From Nitrosopumilales archaeon CG15_BIG_FIL_POST_REV_8_21_14_020_37_12 (GTDB lineage Archaea > Thermoproteota > Nitrososphaeria > Nitrososphaerales > Nitrosopumilaceae), in NCBI GenBank assembly GCA_002781805.1, contig PFFZ01000102.1:1-16697 (forward strand): a stretch of 16,697 bases of DNA, in the 5' to 3' direction. Numbering within the stretch: position 1 is the first letter of the stretch; every line of letters begins with the position of its first letter. Both the position numbers and the translations under genes were made by a program. The notes under the pieces are model-generated. The model was not told the origin of the DNA. It did no database searches and saw only the letters and a program-made list of their open reading frames with translations. Shown here piece after piece: positions 8,890 to 15,686 of the stretch.

Positions 8890-9354
8890 TTAATTGTATG
8901 GACTATATTGTTTGTATACTTTAATGACTGATTCATGAAACATTTTCTGTATATCCTCTTCAGTTGATATTGCTAACTGATTTACAAGATCCGTTGCTGT
9001 CACAATTCCTATAACTTGATCATTTTCAATTACAGGTAATTTTCTAACACCTCTTGTATACATTAAATCTGAAACCATCCACACTGTTTCTTCTGGTCCT
9101 ATTGCAATCAAAGGAGAAGACATTATTTGTTTGACAGGCGTTGAAATCTGATATGCGTGAGCTGCCACTTTCACTGCAAAATCTCTGTCAGTAACAATTC
9201 CTATAGGTAAATTATTTTCCATAATTATGACAGATCCAACTTTTGAATCTTCCATCATTTTTGCTGCTTCATTTATTGTAATTGATGCATCTACTGCAAT
9301 TACTGATTTATTCATAATATCTTTCACAGTAATTCGCGTAGGATCCTTATTCAC
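8890..9354 (-). CDS. Two-CBS-domain protein (first of the island)
   Basis: 154 residues with a CBS pair at about 11-65 and 75-128. Each shows the pattern IM-x-V-x-I-x-VTDRD/VTATD, and the pair forms a Bateman module that usually binds AMP, ATP or related nucleotides. No catalytic domain is attached, so it probably acts by binding a partner. The start is GTG 9354; a TATA-like ATAATATAA on this strand (9376-9384) lies 22-30 nt upstream, which fits a leaderless message. Residues 80-92 and 22-32 are encoded by DNA blocks identical to those in the CBS gene at 9965. It ends directly against crcB, tail to tail. Confidence 0.9.
   Translation of the reverse strand: MNKDPTRITVKDIMNKSVIAVDASITINEAAKMMEDSKVGSVIIMENNLPIGIVTDRDFAVKVAAHAYQISTPVKQIMSSPLIAIGPEETVWMVSDLMYTRGVRKLPVIENDQVIGIVTATDLVNQLAISTEEDIQKMFHESVIKVYKQYSPYN
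9079..9125. repeat. 47-bp inverted repeat, copy 1 (CBS gene)
   Basis: All 47 bases match the reverse complement of 10182-10228. It encodes MSSPLIAIGPEETVW. Confidence 0.9.
9261..9291. repeat. 31-bp inverted repeat, copy 1 (CBS gene)
   Basis: Matches the reverse complement of 10016-10046 without mismatch and encodes DASITINEAA. Confidence 0.9.
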
Positions 9355-9467
9355 TTCAATGGACTTTATTTTTCGTTATATTATGGTCTTTCTATAATAT
9401 CATAATTGAAAATCAAAAACGATAATGCATAGAAACATCTTAAACCTGACTAAATACTACAGCTACT

Positions 9468-9887
9468 GTGAGCATAAAGAAGATACTTGTACCGCTTGAT
9501 GGCTCCAAAAATTCCATGAGGGGACTGGATGAGGCGATTTATCTAGCTAGACAATGTCATGCGACTATTACTGGTTTGTATGTTATTCCATTATCCAAAC
9601 CACAAACGGATTCTCAAATTTCTTATGTTGAGAAACATCTTCTTCAAAATGCATCAAAATTTATGTCCAAGGCAAAAAAACGTTCAGCCCAAAACGGAAT
9701 TGATTTTTCTGATATGGTAATTTATGGTGATGAAGGATCAAAAATTGTCAATTATGCAAATAGTAAAAAATTCGACATGATTGTAATTGGTTCAAGAGGT
9801 ATGGGTTCAATAAAGGAAACTTTTCTTGGAAGTACTTCGAATTTTGTTTTACATAAATCTAAGCTGCCAGTTTTGATAGTAAAATAA
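9468..9887 (+). CDS. UspA universal stress protein, ATP-binding type (copy A)
   Basis: 139 residues, one Usp domain. KKILVPLDGS (4-13) holds the Asp that contacts ATP, and G108-x2-G111-x9-G121-S122 is the full ATP-binding loop, as in MJ0577-type proteins. These bind ATP and act as dimers in stress or energy adaptation; the target here is unknown. The start is GTG 9468, with the TATA-like ATCTTAAAC about 25-32 nt upstream. Codons 2-41 are encoded by a 119-bp segment nearly identical to that of the UspA at 11119-11547 on the other strand. A T-run follows the stop at 9894-9899. Confidence 0.93.
   Translation: MSIKKILVPLDGSKNSMRGLDEAIYLARQCHATITGLYVIPLSKPQTDSQISYVEKHLLQNASKFMSKAKKRSAQNGIDFSDMVIYGDEGSKIVNYANSKKFDMIVIGSRGMGSIKETFLGSTSNFVLHKSKLPVLIVK
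9472..9590. repeat. 119-bp inverted repeat, copy 1 (UspA copy A)
   Basis: Identical to the reverse complement of 11416-11534 except for one silent base (G at 9533, GAG versus GAA). A second 30-bp identical block lies at 9764-9793. Confidence 0.93.
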
Positions 9888-9964
9888 TACCATTTTTTCA
9901 AATTTCAATTTCTTTTCATGAAAATTAAGATCTTATTTATTAGAATAATCATCAAAATAACTTC

Positions 9965-10405
9965 ATGGCTCATACATTTGTAAAAGATGTAATGATCAGA
10001 GATTTAGCTGAATTGGATGCATCAATTACAATAAATGAAGCAGCAAGGATAATGGATTACAGGAACATCGGTTGCATAATAGTAACCAAAGATAATGCTC
10101 CGGTTGGGATTCTAACCGAAAGAGACTTTGTAAAAAAAATTACTGCCAAAGAAATTTCACCAACCTTCTCTTTAGATAAAGTAATGTCTTCTCCTTTGAT
10201 TGCAATAGGACCAGAAGAAACAGTGTGGGAAGCGGCACAAATTATGAAAACAAAAAACATTCACAAGTTACCTGTCATGCAAGATGGTAAAGTTATTGGA
10301 ATAATTACAACTACTGATCTAGTTAAAATTTGTAGTGTAGGATCTGATTCAGAAATGAGAAGAATTTGTGATCAAATCTTAACACGTATGGAACAAAACA
10401 AGTGA
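9965..10405 (+). CDS. Two-CBS-domain protein (second of the island)
   Basis: 146 residues with CBS pairs at about 8-62 and 72-124 (GILTERDF and GIITTTDL ends). It is a paralogue of the CBS protein at 8890-9354 and shares identical DNA blocks with it. As a stand-alone Bateman module it should sense adenine nucleotides and signal through a partner. TATA-like CTTATTTATTA at 9932-9942 lies 23-33 nt before ATG 9965, pointing to a leaderless mRNA. The stop overlaps the start of the next small ORF (GTGA), suggesting a two-gene unit. Confidence 0.9.
   Translation: MAHTFVKDVMIRDLAELDASITINEAARIMDYRNIGCIIVTKDNAPVGILTERDFVKKITAKEISPTFSLDKVMSSPLIAIGPEETVWEAAQIMKTKNIHKLPVMQDGKVIGIITTTDLVKICSVGSDSEMRRICDQILTRMEQNK
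10016..10046. repeat. 31-bp inverted repeat, copy 2 (CBS gene)
   Basis: Partner of 9261-9291. Confidence 0.9.
10182..10228. repeat. 47-bp inverted repeat, copy 2 (CBS gene)
   Basis: Partner of 9079-9125. The flanking codons on both sides differ, so identity is sharply bounded. Confidence 0.9.
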
Positions 10406-10638
10406 TTTACATGGTATATTCTTATCAAGTAATAAAATTCCAAACAATCACGTTTGTTCAGGGTACTCATTGGTCTCAATCTATTGGTGAAAAAGGAATT
10501 TTATACAAATCTCTAAAAGATCCTTTCTCAAAAATTATCATACAGTCAAATAACTCAAAAAAACTATTTCATGTACCTAAGGATAGAACAGTCCTAGTGG
10601 ATCATGATATTGTACACTTTTTAGGAGAATTAAGTTAG
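10402..10638 (+). CDS. Small protein of unknown function coupled to a CBS gene
   Basis: 78 residues, not recognised. The sequence alternates short beta-like stretches (YQVIKFQTITFV, SKIIIQ, RTVLVDHDIVHFL) and has no Cys pair, signal or membrane helix, so it may be a small beta-rich soluble protein. Two starts are possible: GTG 10402, which overlaps the CBS stop by 4 nt (GTGA), and ATG 10411. Either way translation is probably coupled to the CBS protein, which makes it a candidate partner. It ends 3 nt from the leftward UspA stop. Confidence 0.6.
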   Translation: MIYMVYSYQVIKFQTITFVQGTHWSQSIGEKGILYKSLKDPFSKIIIQSNNSKKLFHVPKDRTVLVDHDIVHFLGELS

Positions 10639-10651
10639 TCTTTATCTAACT
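10633..10651. terminator. Small dyad at convergent gene ends
   Basis: AGTTAG (10633-10638) and CTAACT (10646-10651) can form a 6-bp stem with a 7-nt loop. It includes both stop codons of the two convergent genes and may terminate transcripts from both sides. Confidence 0.35.
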
Positions 10652-11109
10652 AAAAGCACAGGACAACTTGCCTGCTCAGAAACTTTTCTGCTTACACTAC
10701 CCAAAGTTTTGATCTTTCCTATTCCATGAAGACCTTGACTACCCATTATTATTAACGAAATTTTTTTCTTTTTTGAAAAATTTAATATTTCATTTGCAAT
10801 ATTGCCTCTAGCGATACTATATGATACAGTAATTCCATTCTCTTTGCATTTCTTTGCAGCTGTCTTCAACATCTTCTCAGCATCACCAATTACAATCTTC
10901 TGCCATTTTTTCATAGATTCTTTTTCTGATTTTGTTCTGATCAAACCCAACATTCCAGGTGGCGAAATATATCCAATACTAACTACGGAAAATAAAAAAA
11001 CTTCCGAGTCTAAATTATGTGCTAATTCCATTGCATGTGATAACGCTTTAGATGAAAACTTGGAACCATCATATGGAACAAGAATTCTAGTTAACATTTT
11101 AGAAAACAC
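10642..11109 (-). CDS. UspA universal stress protein with altered ATP loop (copy C)
   Basis: 155 residues from the chosen start. RILVPYDGS gives the N-terminal ATP-contact Asp, and a longer middle part (IGYISPPGMLGLIRTKSEKE) precedes the helix. The ATP loop reads G-SQ-G-LHGIGKIKTL-GS, with ten instead of nine residues between the second and third Gly, so nucleotide binding may be changed. GTG 11109 is preferred because AGGTGA (11115-11120), which overlaps the stop of the upstream UspA gene, lies 5 nt before it. GTG 11118 and ATG 11097 are alternatives. It is the second gene of a leftward UspA pair with no real gap. Confidence 0.88.
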   Translation of the reverse strand: MFSKMLTRILVPYDGSKFSSKALSHAMELAHNLDSEVFLFSVVSIGYISPPGMLGLIRTKSEKESMKKWQKIVIGDAEKMLKTAAKKCKENGITVSYSIARGNIANEILNFSKKKKISLIIMGSQGLHGIGKIKTLGSVSRKVSEQASCPVLLVR

Positions 11110-11118
11110 TTCATTCAC

Positions 11119-11547
11119 CTACTTTATGACTAATACGGGAACTTTTGATTTATGAACTATAGCTTTTGCAACACTACCCAAAAATATTTCTTTTAATCCA
11201 CTTTGACCTCTGGAACCAATTACAATCATGTCGAATTTTTTAGTATTTACCATATCATTAATTTCAGCTGTTGGACTACCAAACACTACTTTTGATCTAA
11301 ACACAATTCCTTTCTGTGCACATTTTGTTTTTGCCTCACTCATGAACTTTTTAGCTGATTTTTTAAGATGAATTTGATAAGGCATAATTGCATCAGCAAA
11401 ATTCCTCGGATAAATTGGAATAACATACAAACCAGTAATAGTCGCATGACATTGTCTAGCTAGATAAATCGCTTCATCCAGTCCCCTCATGGAATTTTTG
11501 GAGCCATCAAGCGGTACAAGTATCTTCTTTATGCCTTTTTTAGTCAT
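11119..11547 (-). CDS. UspA universal stress protein, ATP-binding type (copy B)
   Basis: 142 residues. IKKILVPLDGSKNSMRG near the start is identical in protein to copy A for about 40 residues. The ATP loop G-SR-G-QSGLKEIFL-GS is canonical. The body between the two conserved ends differs clearly from copy A (for example IYPRNFADAIMPYQ). ATG 11547 is the first start; AGAGG lies about 10 nt upstream. It leads a two-gene unit with the UspA at 10642-11109. Confidence 0.93.
   Translation of the reverse strand: MTKKGIKKILVPLDGSKNSMRGLDEAIYLARQCHATITGLYVIPIYPRNFADAIMPYQIHLKKSAKKFMSEAKTKCAQKGIVFRSKVVFGSPTAEINDMVNTKKFDMIVIGSRGQSGLKEIFLGSVAKAIVHKSKVPVLVIK
11213..11242. repeat. 30-bp inverted repeat, copy 2 (UspA copy B)
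   Basis: Matches the reverse complement of 9764-9793 exactly and encodes KKFDMIVIGS, the start of the ATP loop. Confidence 0.85.
11416..11534. repeat. 119-bp inverted repeat, copy 2 (UspA copy B)
   Basis: Partner of 9472-9590, one mismatch in 119. Both copies lie in the same frame and at the same place in their genes. Confidence 0.93.
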
Positions 11548-11673
11548 TTACTTCTGCCTCTCATTTTTTAGATCTAAGATCAAGTTAAGATTATCAATTA
11601 TAAGAATATCTTCTAGTTTCATCATTGATGATTTTGAAGTTTAGTTAAATATTCAAAATATGTAAACTTCTAC

Positions 11674-12102
11674 ATGAGAAAATCACTTTATATGAATATT
11701 CTAGTTCCGCTGGATGGATCAAAATATTCGGAAAAGGCACTGTTACATGCATGTGACATGGCAAAAAACTATCATTCTCGTTTGATACTTTTACATGTAG
11801 TTGAAAAAACATTTCCGATCAATTTCTTGGATAGAAAAGAATATCTTGACATTTTAAGAAAATTTGGGAATAAAGTTTTGATTAAAGCAAAAAAAACAAC
11901 CACTATGAAAGGCCTTGATTCAAAAATAATTATAAAAGAAGGAAACATTGTTAATGAAATAATTAAGCTTGCAAAAAAAGAACAATGTAATCTGATTATT
12001 ATGGGAAGTAAAGGTCTTGGTGCAACAGCCCGATTCTTTCTTGGAAGTGTATCCAATAAACTTGCAAATAACTCACCTTGCTCAATTCTTATAATAAAAT
12101 GA
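11674..12102 (+). CDS. UspA universal stress protein, ATP-binding type (copy D)
   Basis: 142 residues. MNILVPLDGSKYSEKAL and the canonical loop G-SK-G-LGATARFFL-GS mark an ATP-binding Usp protein. It is more distant from copies A and B in sequence and shares no long DNA identity with them. ATG 11674 has TATA-like GTTAAATATT at 11644-11653, 21-30 nt upstream, favouring it over ATG 11692 (Met7). It is divergent from the UspA pair on the left and ends 2 nt before the stop of the four-CBS gene on the opposite strand. Confidence 0.92.
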   Translation: MRKSLYMNILVPLDGSKYSEKALLHACDMAKNYHSRLILLHVVEKTFPINFLDRKEYLDILRKFGNKVLIKAKKTTTMKGLDSKIIIKEGNIVNEIIKLAKKEQCNLIIMGSKGLGATARFFLGSVSNKLANNSPCSILIIK

Positions 12103-12104
12103 TT

Positions 12105-12968
12105 TTAGGTTTCTGCAATTGCTTTTACAATATCTGTTTTAGTAATAATTCCAACAAGTCTTGATTTTTTTACGACAGGAATCCCACTGATATTGTTTCT
12201 TATCATTAACAAAACAGCGACTCCCACATCTTCGTCAGCATCAACTGTAATAGGATTGGCTGACATTATGTCTACTGCTTTAAAATGCAACAAGTGACTC
12301 ATCTGATTTACATGGTATTCTGCAAAATTACTTTTCATTTTATACTCTTGAACCTCCTTCGGATCGGCTGATTGGGCAATCCAATAAGGTAATTTTGCTG
12401 GTACAAAATCCCTAAAAGTTATAATGCCTACAGGCATCTTATTTCGTTCTACCACGATTCTAGCTATTCTATTATGAATCAACAAACTTTCTACATACAA
12501 CAATGAATCTCCAGGCATAACTGTAATTACATTTCTAGTCATTATTTTTGAAACTTTGAGTGGAGCTACTGCATGAGTAAGGAAAAGCGACGCCAAATCT
12601 GTTTTTGTAACAAGTCCTTCTAAAACTCCCTCTTTGCCTAAAACAATAATGGAGCTAATTCGATTTTTCTTCATCAATTTAGCACAATCATAAACGGAAT
12701 CTGTTTTCTTTACAGTAATCAATTTTTTTGACATAAATCCAGATACTTTTACAGATTTGATCGGCTTGTCTCCAAGCGCATAGATGGTTTTTGCAATGTC
12801 TTTTTCTGTAATTATTCCCACTGGTCGATTTTTTGCGTCTATGACTACCAATCTTTTCAAATTATGCCTTAGCAAAATCTCTCTAGCATCTAGAAGTGTA
12901 GCGTTGGGGCTAACAGTCACAGTTCTCTTAATAATCACCTGATTGAGATCTGCATTTTTTAATCGCAA
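12105..12968 (-). CDS. Four-CBS-domain protein
   Basis: 287 residues with four CBS domains at about 11-62, 79-130, 141-190 and 233-285, ending in the usual GIITEKD, GLVTKTD, GIITFRD and GIITKTD. That makes two Bateman modules, enough for two or more nucleotide sites, joined by a 40-residue helical insert (190-230). There is no effector domain, so it is probably a sensor acting on partners. The start is TTG 12968: no other start lies between it and the upstream in-frame stop, and the TATA-like ATATATTTA on this strand (12993-13001) lies 25 nt before it. A leaderless TTG start would be unusual; GTG at codon 11 is the alternative. Confidence 0.88.
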   Translation of the reverse strand: MRLKNADLNQVIIKRTVTVSPNATLLDAREILLRHNLKRLVVIDAKNRPVGIITEKDIAKTIYALGDKPIKSVKVSGFMSKKLITVKKTDSVYDCAKLMKKNRISSIIVLGKEGVLEGLVTKTDLASLFLTHAVAPLKVSKIMTRNVITVMPGDSLLYVESLLIHNRIARIVVERNKMPVGIITFRDFVPAKLPYWIAQSADPKEVQEYKMKSNFAEYHVNQMSHLLHFKAVDIMSANPITVDADEDVGVAVLLMIRNNISGIPVVKKSRLVGIITKTDIVKAIAET

Positions 12969-13049
12969 TACAGCATTATCAATTTAATTCGTTAAATATA
13001 TCCATTCAAATACCACACATGAAAATCAGCACTGAAAATCTGGGTTTTC

Positions 13050-13062
13050 TTTTAATTTAAAA
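13050..13062 (+). promoter_or_regulatory. TATA-like box before the CBS-HPF-like operon
   Basis: TTTAATTTAAAA at 13050-13061 is the best TATA candidate for the rightward operon and would start transcription about 10 nt before ATG 13094. No SD is seen at this start. Confidence 0.4.
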
Positions 13063-13093: not shown

Positions 13094-14260
13094 ATGATTA
13101 CAGATACAATTCATGAGCATTTAAAAGACATAAAATCCTCTAAGGTTAAACCACTTGTTTCAAAGGCCACAATAATTGATCCATCCGATACCCTTTCAAA
13201 TGTTATTGGTAAAATTTCAAAAAATAATGCATATGATGTGTTTTGTCTAAATGGAAAATCAACCCTTTCAACTAATATCAGAACACTACTGGATGCCAAA
13301 AATATCACCTCAATGAAAGTAGAACCATTTCTTTATCCTATTCCTTATCTAAACCCTGATGATTCCATCCAAAAAGCAGCAAACATAATTTCTCACTATA
13401 GAATTCGCGAAGTGCCTGTAGTTCAAAAAAATAAAATTATAGGAGTAGTGACTGCACAGCGAATACTAAAGCTTCTTTCAACCAAAGATAACAAATGGAT
13501 AAAAGCCAATTTAATTTACACTCAAAATCCAATAACCATTTCTGCAGAGGAATCGCTTAGTAATGCCAGACGAACTATGACATCCAAGAGGATTGATCAC
13601 TTGCCAGTACTGAATCAAGGGAAAATTAAACAAGTTTTAACATCTGCACATATTCTGGAATTGATCATACCACAAGAAAGACAAGGAAAAAAATCAATGG
13701 GAAGTAAAACCATTCACAAGTTAGAATCTAGGATTGGAAATATAGGAAGCACAAGAATACCTCAATGCTCACCAAATGACAATCTCAACAAGATCATAAA
13801 TTCAATGTTAAAAACAAACACTTCATGTTGTTTAGTTAATCTTTGGGAAAATCTGCAAGGGATAATCACTTTTAGAGACATACTTGAATTATTGGCGTCT
13901 AAAGTAGAAACTCCCATTCCATTATACATTGTAGGGCTACCTGAGGATCAAAAAAATATGACTCTTATCAGCAAAAAATTTGAAAATACTCTCAAAAGAG
14001 TTCAAAATGTTTATTCAGAAATTCAAGAAGCTAGAGTTTCAATAAAGCAACAAAGAACTGGAAACAAAAAAGAAGGAAAATATGAGGTATCAATCATGAT
14101 CATAACCCCACACCACGCACCTCTAATTTACAATTCAATAGGGTTTGATCTGAGTGAAGTTTTAGAAGACTTGAGCCAAAAATTACTAAGAACATTATCC
14201 AAACGTGCCAAAAGACGTTCTAAAAAAAGCATTAGAAAAATTGGATTACCAATATTCTAG
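13094..14260 (+). CDS. Four-CBS protein with C-terminal HPF/RaiA-like domain (putative ribosome hibernation factor)
   Basis: 388 residues. Four CBS-like domains, partly degenerate, lie at about 15-70, 76-130, 140-192 and 210-268. From 274 on comes IPLYIVGLPEDQ, then a helix, a strand (EARVSIKQQ), a charged loop (RTGNKKEG), a strand (YEVSIMIITPHH), a strand and a helix (VLEDLSQKLLRTL). The order and spacing match the beta-alpha-beta-beta-beta-alpha fold of ribosome hibernation promoting factors. A tail rich in Arg and Lys (KRAKRRSKKSIRK) could bind RNA. My reading is a nucleotide-sensing ribosome-associated factor. The HPF match is by pattern, not by search. First gene of an operon with PAC2 and Hsp20; the gap to the next gene is 2 nt. 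Confidence 0.75.
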   Translation: MITDTIHEHLKDIKSSKVKPLVSKATIIDPSDTLSNVIGKISKNNAYDVFCLNGKSTLSTNIRTLLDAKNITSMKVEPFLYPIPYLNPDDSIQKAANIISHYRIREVPVVQKNKIIGVVTAQRILKLLSTKDNKWIKANLIYTQNPITISAEESLSNARRTMTSKRIDHLPVLNQGKIKQVLTSAHILELIIPQERQGKKSMGSKTIHKLESRIGNIGSTRIPQCSPNDNLNKIINSMLKTNTSCCLVNLWENLQGIITFRDILELLASKVETPIPLYIVGLPEDQKNMTLISKKFENTLKRVQNVYSEIQEARVSIKQQRTGNKKEGKYEVSIMIITPHHAPLIYNSIGFDLSEVLEDLSQKLLRTLSKRAKRRSKKSIRKIGLPIF

Positions 14261-14262
14261 TT

Positions 14263-14982
14263 ATGAAAGTTAGCAAACCAAATCAAGAAAATATCTTATT
14301 AGTAGGCTTTCCAAGCAATGGTCTTGTAGGAACTTTCTCAATTTCGTACCTTGTTCATTATTTAGGAATGAAACAAATTGGAGAAATTGATCATCCTGAT
14401 TTGCCTCCCACACTATTTGTAGAAGACGGCGAAATATTGGCTCCGATCAGAATTTACAAAAAAGATAACCTCTTTGTAATTATGTCAGATCTTCCGTTTG
14501 ATCCCTATCGAGCATATGATTTTTCAGAATCTATCTTACAATACTGCAAAAATAATGATATAAAAAAAATAATCATAGTCAGTGGGATGGAAACAATAAA
14601 CCGTGAACCCAATACACCCAAAATTTACGGACTAGTTACCCATCAATCACTTGAAGAAATTCTTTATGATAATCAAATATCCAAATTCCTGTCAGGTTCA
14701 ATTTTTGGAACTGATGCTGCAATAATTACAGTATTTAGAAAATCCAAGGTACCTGCATTAATTTTGTATGCTGAATGCCATCCATTCTTTCCCGATCCTG
14801 AAGCATCAATTTTAGCTATAACGACTCTTGCCAAAGTTTTGAATGTCAAAGTTGATACAACTGACATTAAAAAAAGAATGGAAAGATTGAGAATACAACA
14901 CAGAAATCTCATGGAGGAGACTATACGTGCCTTACAACAACAGCAACAGGATAAAACAAGGGTTCCACAAATTTATCGGTGA
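14263..14982 (+). CDS. PAC2-family proteasome assembly chaperone-like protein with HbYX tail
   Basis: 239 residues. The start (ILLVGFPSNGLVGTFSISYLV, 11-31), LPPTLFVEDGEI, the central IIIVSGME and the FGTDAAI and CHPFFPDPEAS segments are typical of archaeal PAC2 proteins (PbaA/PbaB type). A coiled helix with a Gln run follows, and the chain ends IYR, a HbYX motif (hydrophobic-Tyr-any). In PbaA/PbaB and proteasomal ATPases this motif inserts between alpha subunits of the 20S proteasome. Role: binding the alpha ring, in assembly or as an adaptor. The ATG lies 2 nt after the upstream stop, so cotranslation with the CBS-HPF-like gene is likely. Confidence 0.9.
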   Translation: MKVSKPNQENILLVGFPSNGLVGTFSISYLVHYLGMKQIGEIDHPDLPPTLFVEDGEILAPIRIYKKDNLFVIMSDLPFDPYRAYDFSESILQYCKNNDIKKIIIVSGMETINREPNTPKIYGLVTHQSLEEILYDNQISKFLSGSIFGTDAAIITVFRKSKVPALILYAECHPFFPDPEASILAITTLAKVLNVKVDTTDIKKRMERLRIQHRNLMEETIRALQQQQQDKTRVPQIYR

Positions 14983-14986
14983 TTAT

Positions 14987-15382
14987 GTGAAAACAATAAA
15001 CGAAAATAATTTGGATATAAGGACAATTCAACCCTCAATCATCTCTTTATTTAATGATGATGTGATTAGCCATATACTGTCACCACTTTCTTGTATTAGG
15101 GAATTTGGTACTTATTGGTTGTTAGAATTTGATCTTCCTTTAGTAAATAAGAAAGACATCAAGGTTACTTTTGATAAAAATACAATCAGCGTAGAAGCAA
15201 AACTTAGAGAAGTCTATTCCGAGAAAAAACTGGGCATTACAACAAAATTTCAATATTTCAAAAAAACTATTTCACTTCCAGAAAACATAAACAAAAATAA
15301 AACTACTGCAAAATTTGAAAATGGGAGATTGAAAATTACTATGCCGAAAAAGATTTCTGGTCAGAAGATCAAAATAGATTAG
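14987..15382 (+). CDS. hsp20: Small Hsp20/alpha-crystallin protein, third gene of the operon
   Basis: 131 residues from GTG 14987. The alpha-crystallin domain covers most of the protein (WLLEFDLPLVNKKDIKVTF to LKITMPKK), with the AxxxNGxL motif as AKFENGRLKI and a C-terminal I-x-I (KIKID). It has almost no N-terminal arm, so oligomers may be small. GGTGA (14978-14982), which spans the PAC2 stop, stands 4 nt before GTG 14987 and suits stop-restart coupling. A GTG at 14927, with GGAGG 9 nt upstream, would add 20 residues and overlap PAC2 by 56 nt. The stop overlaps the stop of the leftward gene by 4 nt. It is quite divergent from the other two Hsp20s here. Confidence 0.85.
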   Translation: MKTINENNLDIRTIQPSIISLFNDDVISHILSPLSCIREFGTYWLLEFDLPLVNKKDIKVTFDKNTISVEAKLREVYSEKKLGITTKFQYFKKTISLPENINKNKTTAKFENGRLKITMPKKISGQKIKID

Positions 15383-15651
15383 GTGAAAAATTTCTCTACC
15401 TGATCTCTGTATTTCAATACAAGCTTCCCAAATTCAGAAAAATCATCAGCAGTTGGGTATTTCATTCTCATTGCATATTGATTTACAAACACGGAAAGAG
15501 CACTGCCTACTATCAGGTTGTAAACACCGTCAGCTAGATTGTTGGAGTAGGGGAATGCAACTTTAATGAACGGCAGATAAGTTTCTGTCTGTGAAATCAT
15601 TAATTTCATATTCTTTTCGACATAGTCTTGAACATCTGCAGGAATGGCCAT
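15379..15651 (-). CDS. Small conserved-looking helical protein of unknown function
   Basis: 90 residues from ATG 15651 (MAIPADVQDYVEKNMKL...). Predicted mostly helical, with a moderately hydrophobic middle (DGVYNLIVGSALSVFVNQY) too short and polar to be a clear membrane helix. The family is not recognised. ATG 15651 is chosen because TATA-like TTTTTATAA on this strand (15675-15683) is 24 nt upstream, fitting a leaderless transcript; the TTG one codon earlier is not needed. It converges on the operon Hsp20 with a 4-nt stop overlap and is divergent from the third hsp20. Confidence 0.7.
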   Translation of the reverse strand: MAIPADVQDYVEKNMKLMISQTETYLPFIKVAFPYSNNLADGVYNLIVGSALSVFVNQYAMRMKYPTADDFSEFGKLVLKYRDQVEKFFT

Positions 15652-15686
15652 CAAGTATTACTAGAAACGGTTTCTTATAAAAAGAC

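Follow-up and report, generated by a model that had tools for sequence, protein, structure and literature searches.

A Nitrosopumilaceae gene that probably encodes a divergent relative of the archaeal ribosome hibernation factor HibA

A 16,697-nucleotide stretch of DNA from Nitrosopumilales archaeon CG15_BIG_FIL_POST_REV_8_21_14_020_37_12 (assembly GCA_002781805.1, contig PFFZ01000102.1), called the window here, carries a gene whose product is very probably a divergent HibA, one of the archaeal hibernation factors that park idle ribosomes under stress. This reading, drawn from sequence comparisons, builds on direct observations of the architecture of the protein, its homology, purifying selection, distribution and a conserved locus. 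HibA was described in April 2026 (Nat Commun, "A family of ribosome hibernation factors widespread in Archaea"; PMC13324472). There, HibA of Pyrococcus abyssi is a protein made of a four-CBS module (residues 1-269) and an HPF/RaiA domain (residues 270-392) that carries two archaeal-specific insertions; HibA occupies the 30S and 50S subunits and is an inhibitor of in vitro translation. Thermococcus barophilus cells that have lost it resume growth late and have a smaller 70S pool (PMC13324472). The idea of joining CBS domains to ribosome hibernation is thus not new, as it was published with HibA, and JGI names already carry the fusion: relative P0126 is called "CBS domain-containing protein/ribosome-associated translation inhibitor RaiA", and the name of relative P0035 combines RaiA with a label for CBS or a regulator. 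The fusion as such had therefore been noted by automatic annotation. The gene and its parts are as follows.

13094..14260, plus strand: HibA-like gene, four-CBS module and HPF/RaiA-like domain, 388 residues
13094..13900, plus strand: CBS module, residues 1-269 (three stretches of Pfam PF00571; collinear with P. abyssi HibA)
13661..13732, plus strand: loop between CBS3 and CBS4, residues ~190-213 (alignment with the peptidyl-transferase centre, or PTC, loop of HibA)
13901..14257, plus strand: HPF/RaiA-like C-terminal domain, residues 270-388 (isoelectric point 10.0; profile evidence)
14189..14257, plus strand: basic tail, residues 366-388 (10 Lys/Arg and no Asp/Glu in 23)

The open reading frame (ORF) runs exactly from 13094 to 14260 and starts with ATG. 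Homology searches found 652 proteins, the best 120 of which were listed, and 21 related loci came from named genomes. The closest belongs to a Nitrosarchaeum metagenome-assembled genome, whose protein is 99% identical; the host is a Nitrosopumilaceae archaeon, in agreement with an earlier note on this DNA that took it for an ammonia oxidiser. Against seven relatives, the ratio of nonsynonymous to synonymous substitution rates (dN/dS) lay between 0.03 and 0.09 in the CBS module and between 0.045 and 0.12 in the C-terminal domain. These substitution patterns place both halves under strong purifying selection. Given the 21 related loci and the low dN/dS values, the ORF is a real gene.

The earlier note had proposed four CBS domains followed by an HPF/RaiA-like domain with a strongly basic tail. 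This architecture is borne out by the Pfam CBS stretches, by collinearity with HibA and by domain-profile matches, and the tail is as basic as described. Pfam PF00571 matched the protein in three stretches (E 7.7e-29); the fourth domain, the N-terminal CBS1, is degenerate and was assigned only through its collinearity with P. abyssi HibA. Among PDB sequences the protein matched chain 9sr9_H best (E 1.2e-12 over query residues 27-328); this is P. abyssi HibA, from the entry 9SR9 of HibA-ATP (PMC13324472). A family profile of 39 rows aligned with the same chain over 21-373 (E 9e-16). Of 23 Thermoproteota ORFs preselected for an HPF match, this profile matched 21 in one collinear stretch (e.g., 22-375, E 6e-31) and the remaining two, L119 and L129, in pieces.

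Homology of the C-terminal domain to bacterial HPF/RaiA is supported by relatives that exceed the Pfam cut-off, by profiles that rank HPFs first and by shuffled sequences that never match the real score. Bit scores above the cut-off of PF02482 (HPF/RaiA) were obtained for G231 (32.2) and G147 (24.4), both full-length relatives, and for the stand-alone homologue of Nitrosopumilus maritimus (26.4). When a 21-row profile of the domain was run against 177,635 PDB sequences, bacterial HPFs took the first four places (E from 3.1e-6 to 3.2e-3, against 0.013 for the first non-HPF); with 16 rows from fused proteins only, the top three were HPFs (9.6e-5 to 4.4e-4; first non-HPF 0.035). With a profile built from the C-terminal domains of canonical HibA proteins, the query domain scored 25.5 bits and the CBS module alone -0.3. 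Of the non-HPF ORFs in the fetched loci, 2,017 were scored with this profile and none exceeded the query; the nearest, in L125, is itself matched by PF02482. Profile-to-profile comparison with canonical HibA C-terminal domains returned probabilities of 96.4% and 95.4%.

The resemblance to HPF might instead have arisen by chance from the basic, lysine-rich composition of the domain. This would fit the weak single-sequence Pfam match and the fact that a pterin-synthase-related NCBIfam model also matches the domain, with 18.2 bits (cut-off 69.35), about equal to the PF02482 score. However, 20,000 shuffles were made, and none of the 19,608 that were scored reached 25.5 bits, the best attaining 14.7. 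Together with the two full-length relatives above the Pfam cut-off and the first rank of HPFs among the PDB sequences, this leaves a chance effect the slimmest of prospects, and we rejected it on the strength of the shuffles and of those relatives.

In a tree of CBS modules, a 100/99 branch parts the HibA modules from stand-alone four-CBS proteins. Its HibA side comprised Nitrosopumilaceae, other Nitrososphaerales, other Thermoproteota and one row of P. abyssi, and its stand-alone side held modules of Nitrosopumilaceae-type loci only, with no CM-1, CM-4 or CM-5 of other archaea. One row labelled stand-alone (L019_316oth) is a frame-broken HibA copy, L059 was entered twice, and the long-branched L045 was left out. 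Several results weigh against the identification as HibA. The tree program warned of long branches, and four CBS chains (9zng_7, 9zni_7, 9l96_a and 9znf_5) outranked HibA when the family profile was searched against the PDB. As regards the HPF homology of the C-terminal domain, the protein alone scored 18.3 bits with PF02482 (E 0.0041, residues 271-388), under the cut-off of 23.7; at E<=0.1, PF02482 matched only 7 of the 39 full-length rows, and a PF02482 search of the query's own genome gave no match. Because of the long-branch warning and the four higher-ranking chains, the assignment as a divergent HibA rests more on the domain combination and collinearity than on CBS sequence.

The CBS part also drew matches from the NCBIfam models of the regulators HhpR and PrdR, and JGI labels some relatives "predicted transcriptional regulator". 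The protein could accordingly regulate transcription through its CBS domains, in the manner of HhpR, and its C-terminal tail would then be unrelated to HPF. The scores are far below the cut-offs, at 33.5 of 520 bits for HhpR (NF053603) and 62.7 of 795 for PrdR, and we rejected this candidate for that reason; the C-terminal domain profile, which ranks HPFs first, also speaks against it. We regard such a regulator as very improbable.

The CBS half was aligned with P. abyssi HibA and with Nitrososphaerales and other Thermoproteota proteins. CBS4 retains T-x-x-D, which we take to be the ribose motif of CBS domains, with T259 and D262 invariant across 39 rows. In CBS3 the motif reads T-x-x-H186, the Asp being replaced by His. 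The module probably binds one adenylate, at CBS4, to judge from these motifs, and such an adenylate might tune ribosome binding, release or sequestration. The loop between CBS3 and CBS4 has the place and length of the PTC loop of P. abyssi HibA, located at residues 190-207 (PMC13324472), and differs from it in sequence. According to the same account, AMP is the nucleotide that P. abyssi HibA binds best (dissociation constant 12 uM), and its conformations on the ribosome are largely unchanged by AMP or ATP (PMC13324472). The earlier note had envisaged ribosome silencing under the direct control of adenine nucleotides. The silencing part is supported, inasmuch as the closest characterised protein of this architecture, P. 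abyssi HibA, is a hibernation factor. Direct nucleotide control is not supported, and is a hypothesis rather than a finding, because AMP and ATP barely altered the ribosome-bound states of P. abyssi HibA; in the window's protein the motif is found only in CBS4.

Ribosome binding, translation inhibition and nucleotide sensing are properties that we infer for the protein from its homology to P. abyssi HibA. On this model, the basic HPF/RaiA domain would enter the small subunit and block its mRNA/tRNA channel. The tethered four-CBS module would occupy vacant tRNA sites on the large subunit, and its CBS3-CBS4 loop would reach the PTC. Idle 70S ribosomes would in this way be held inactive and protected until growth resumes.

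The gene lies in a conserved stress locus, at whose head it stands in many relatives; the other features are listed here.

12105..12968, minus strand: divergent stand-alone four-CBS protein, 287 residues (PF00571, E 8.3e-54, four stretches)
13020..13062, plus strand: conserved intergenic block, two TGAAAATC copies and an imperfect palindrome, then TTTAATTTAAAA (alignment of the window and nine relatives)
14263..14982, plus strand: PAC2-family protein (PF09754, E 1.2e-36), starting 2 bases past the stop of the HibA-like gene
14927..15382, plus strand: Hsp20, third gene of the conserved row (PF00011, E 1.8e-14; synteny; start codon uncertain)

The order four-CBS gene (divergent), HibA-like gene, PAC2, Hsp20 was found in the window and in L001, L006, L007, L008, L010, L013 (with PAC2 in two pieces), L021, L032, L034, L035, L037 and L041. 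PAC2 starts 2 bases past the stop in the window and seven relatives (L001, L006, L007, L008, L010, L015 and L021), overlaps the HibA-like gene by 4 bases in L033-L035, lies at distances of -68, 64 or 18 bases in L032, L037 and L041, and is 1.7-2.1 kb off in L039, L040 and L042. It was not detected in some others (e.g., L009, L011, L016, L043, L044 and L047). The PAC2 gene is a probable operon partner of the HibA-like gene, and a link of ribosome hibernation to proteasome assembly through PAC2 can be put forward as a hypothesis.

This close coupling to PAC2 and Hsp20 in many relatives, along with the strong sequence divergence of the family from canonical HibA, would also suit a repurposed HibA. 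In such a protein the HPF-like domain would fold and bind RNA or protein, and the main job would be another one, for instance that of a CBS energy sensor acting with PAC2 and Hsp20 in protein quality control. However, purifying selection is similarly strong on both domains, the length of the CBS3-CBS4 loop is kept, and HPF-only genes persist in related genomes, so we consider repurposing unlikely and retain the assignment as a divergent HibA.

The divergent four-CBS protein, whose best PDB match is 9zni_6 (E 3.3e-21), is a possible second hibernation candidate. Between it and the HibA-like gene, the block with its TGAAAATC direct repeat and TATA-like box is invariant in the window and nine relatives; the designation of TTTAATTTAAAA as a TATA-like box is inferred from sequence. 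The imperfect palindrome, at 13034-13049, occurs once each in G000, G011 and G013 and was absent from G014, G023 and G087, and a search for a regulon by means of it in these six genomes found none. Scanning the window for Rfam families and for tRNAs gave no match. The GTG start listed for the Hsp20 ORF overlaps PAC2; the true start probably lies further downstream, because the ORFs of most relatives are shorter (126-133 residues in most). A conserved 91-residue ORF with no Pfam match is found between two Hsp20 genes (15379-15654, minus strand). In the region 8890-12102, a pair of small CBS-type ORFs is clustered with several ORFs akin to the one at 11674-12102, presumably universal stress proteins, in an order that is similar in several relatives.

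The HPF domain also occurs on its own. Of 19 genomes examined that have a stand-alone HPF gene, 16 carry it next to the divergent four-CBS gene, which is 55-60% identical to that of the window, the exceptions being L058 (N. maritimus itself), L060 and L061; neither PAC2 nor Hsp20 was detected near them in the stretches fetched from the 19 genomes. In a tree of the domain, with few columns and long branches, the stand-alone proteins were not nested in the fused clade; row L037, which had been trimmed at incorrect domain limits and fills 37% of the columns, bears no claim. The simple reading of the stand-alone Nitrosopumilus HPF as a recent truncation of a fused gene would fit the neighbouring gene shared in 16 of 19 genomes, but the tree, which shows no nesting, does not uphold it. 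The converse form, a CBS module without HPF domain nested in the HibA clade, was found in G137, G155 and G158, which also have a stand-alone HPF, and G155 has a fused copy in addition. HibA-clade CBS modules of this form, 269-275 residues long, were seen at loci L049, L050 and L064, in genomes with a stand-alone HPF. As to additional copies, Nitrosarchaeum sp. BD3 carries a frame-broken second HibA gene (L019 6001-7166, and L051) beside the intact one (L013), and a divergent second HibA-like paralogue of 390 residues, 32% identical to the query, is encoded at L045 992-2164 (minus strand) in G012, a genome of the query's genus.

Using the domain profile (E<=1e-3), we detected the HPF domain in 128 of 250 Nitrosopumilaceae genomes, including 86 of 131 genomes of good quality, and in 14 of 22 genera. 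By frame length, 80 of the 128 have a fused gene and 49 a stand-alone one, 4 of these having both, and 3 have fragments only. The full-length profile matched 129 of the 250 genomes at E<=1e-10; across the class it matched 245 of 400 genomes, in 60 of 82 genera. These are upper bounds, because CBS-only matches such as G166 are included. With genus membership taken from handle order, genus g14, to which N. maritimus belongs, comprises 47 stand-alone and 8 fused genomes, and in genus g13 only G073 of ~31 genomes is among the matches.

The HibA paper names the Nitrosopumilaceae among lineages without identifiable hibernation factors, and leaves open whether they do without ribosome hibernation or rely on factors yet to be recognised (PMC13324472). 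The planktonic part of this published lack may hold; its family-wide part does not. According to the paper, HPF/RaiA-like proteins that stand alone occur "mostly" in DPANN and Nitrososphaerales, and some of the stand-alone proteins may already have been counted there if its Nitrososphaerales includes the Nitrosopumilaceae (PMC13324472). The canonical-domain profile reaches the proteins of this family only marginally (21.2 bits and E 0.005 for the query); of nine fused Nitrosopumilaceae proteins, two were unmatched and a third was matched only outside the domain, which could explain why the family was missed. Our literature searches returned nothing on ribosome hibernation in Nitrosopumilus or on RaiA with a CBS domain in Thaumarchaeota.

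Few archaea are as abundant in sea and soil as the ammonia oxidisers, whose life is spent close to starvation. A tentative and rather doubtful extension of our results is that the HibA-type system of the Nitrosopumilaceae exists in several states: fused, in an operon with PAC2 and Hsp20 that would link protein quality control with the parking of ribosomes; split, where the HPF stands alone and a few genomes keep a CBS module that has lost its HPF domain; and missing, mainly in a seemingly open-ocean genus. The series from fused to split to lost would then track the amount of starvation and fluctuation that a lineage meets. If so, split genomes would reveal whether the CBS module acts on the ribosome without a covalent tether. 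Because roughly half of the genomes encode the HPF domain, the hibernation question becomes testable in cultured strains such as N. maritimus (stand-alone) and Nitrosarchaeum (fused), and the natural fused, split and missing states are available for comparison.

Among known systems, P. abyssi HibA is fully collinear with the window's protein, with a four-CBS module (~1-269), an HPF/RaiA domain (~270-390), an equally long CBS3-CBS4 loop and the T-x-x-D of CBS4. The query, a predicted ribosome binder, differs in low sequence identity, in the replacement of the CBS3 Asp by H186 and in its PAC2/Hsp20 locus. HVO_2384 of Haloferax volcanii is a haloarchaeal protein found through co-purification with a Pat2 variant (PMC12607858). 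Bacterial HPF/RaiA (YfiA) shares the homologous domain and the basic C-terminal end; it has no CBS module, and the query itself falls under the Pfam cut-off. The HPF/RaiA family protein of N. maritimus (P0241, 115 residues) is homologous to the C-terminal domain and likewise devoid of a CBS module. Dri of Pyrobaculum also places CBS modules on archaeal ribosomes; it consists of two fused CBS modules with no HPF domain (PMC13324472, PMC12607858). The query, with one CBS module and an HPF-like domain, does not fit this architecture.
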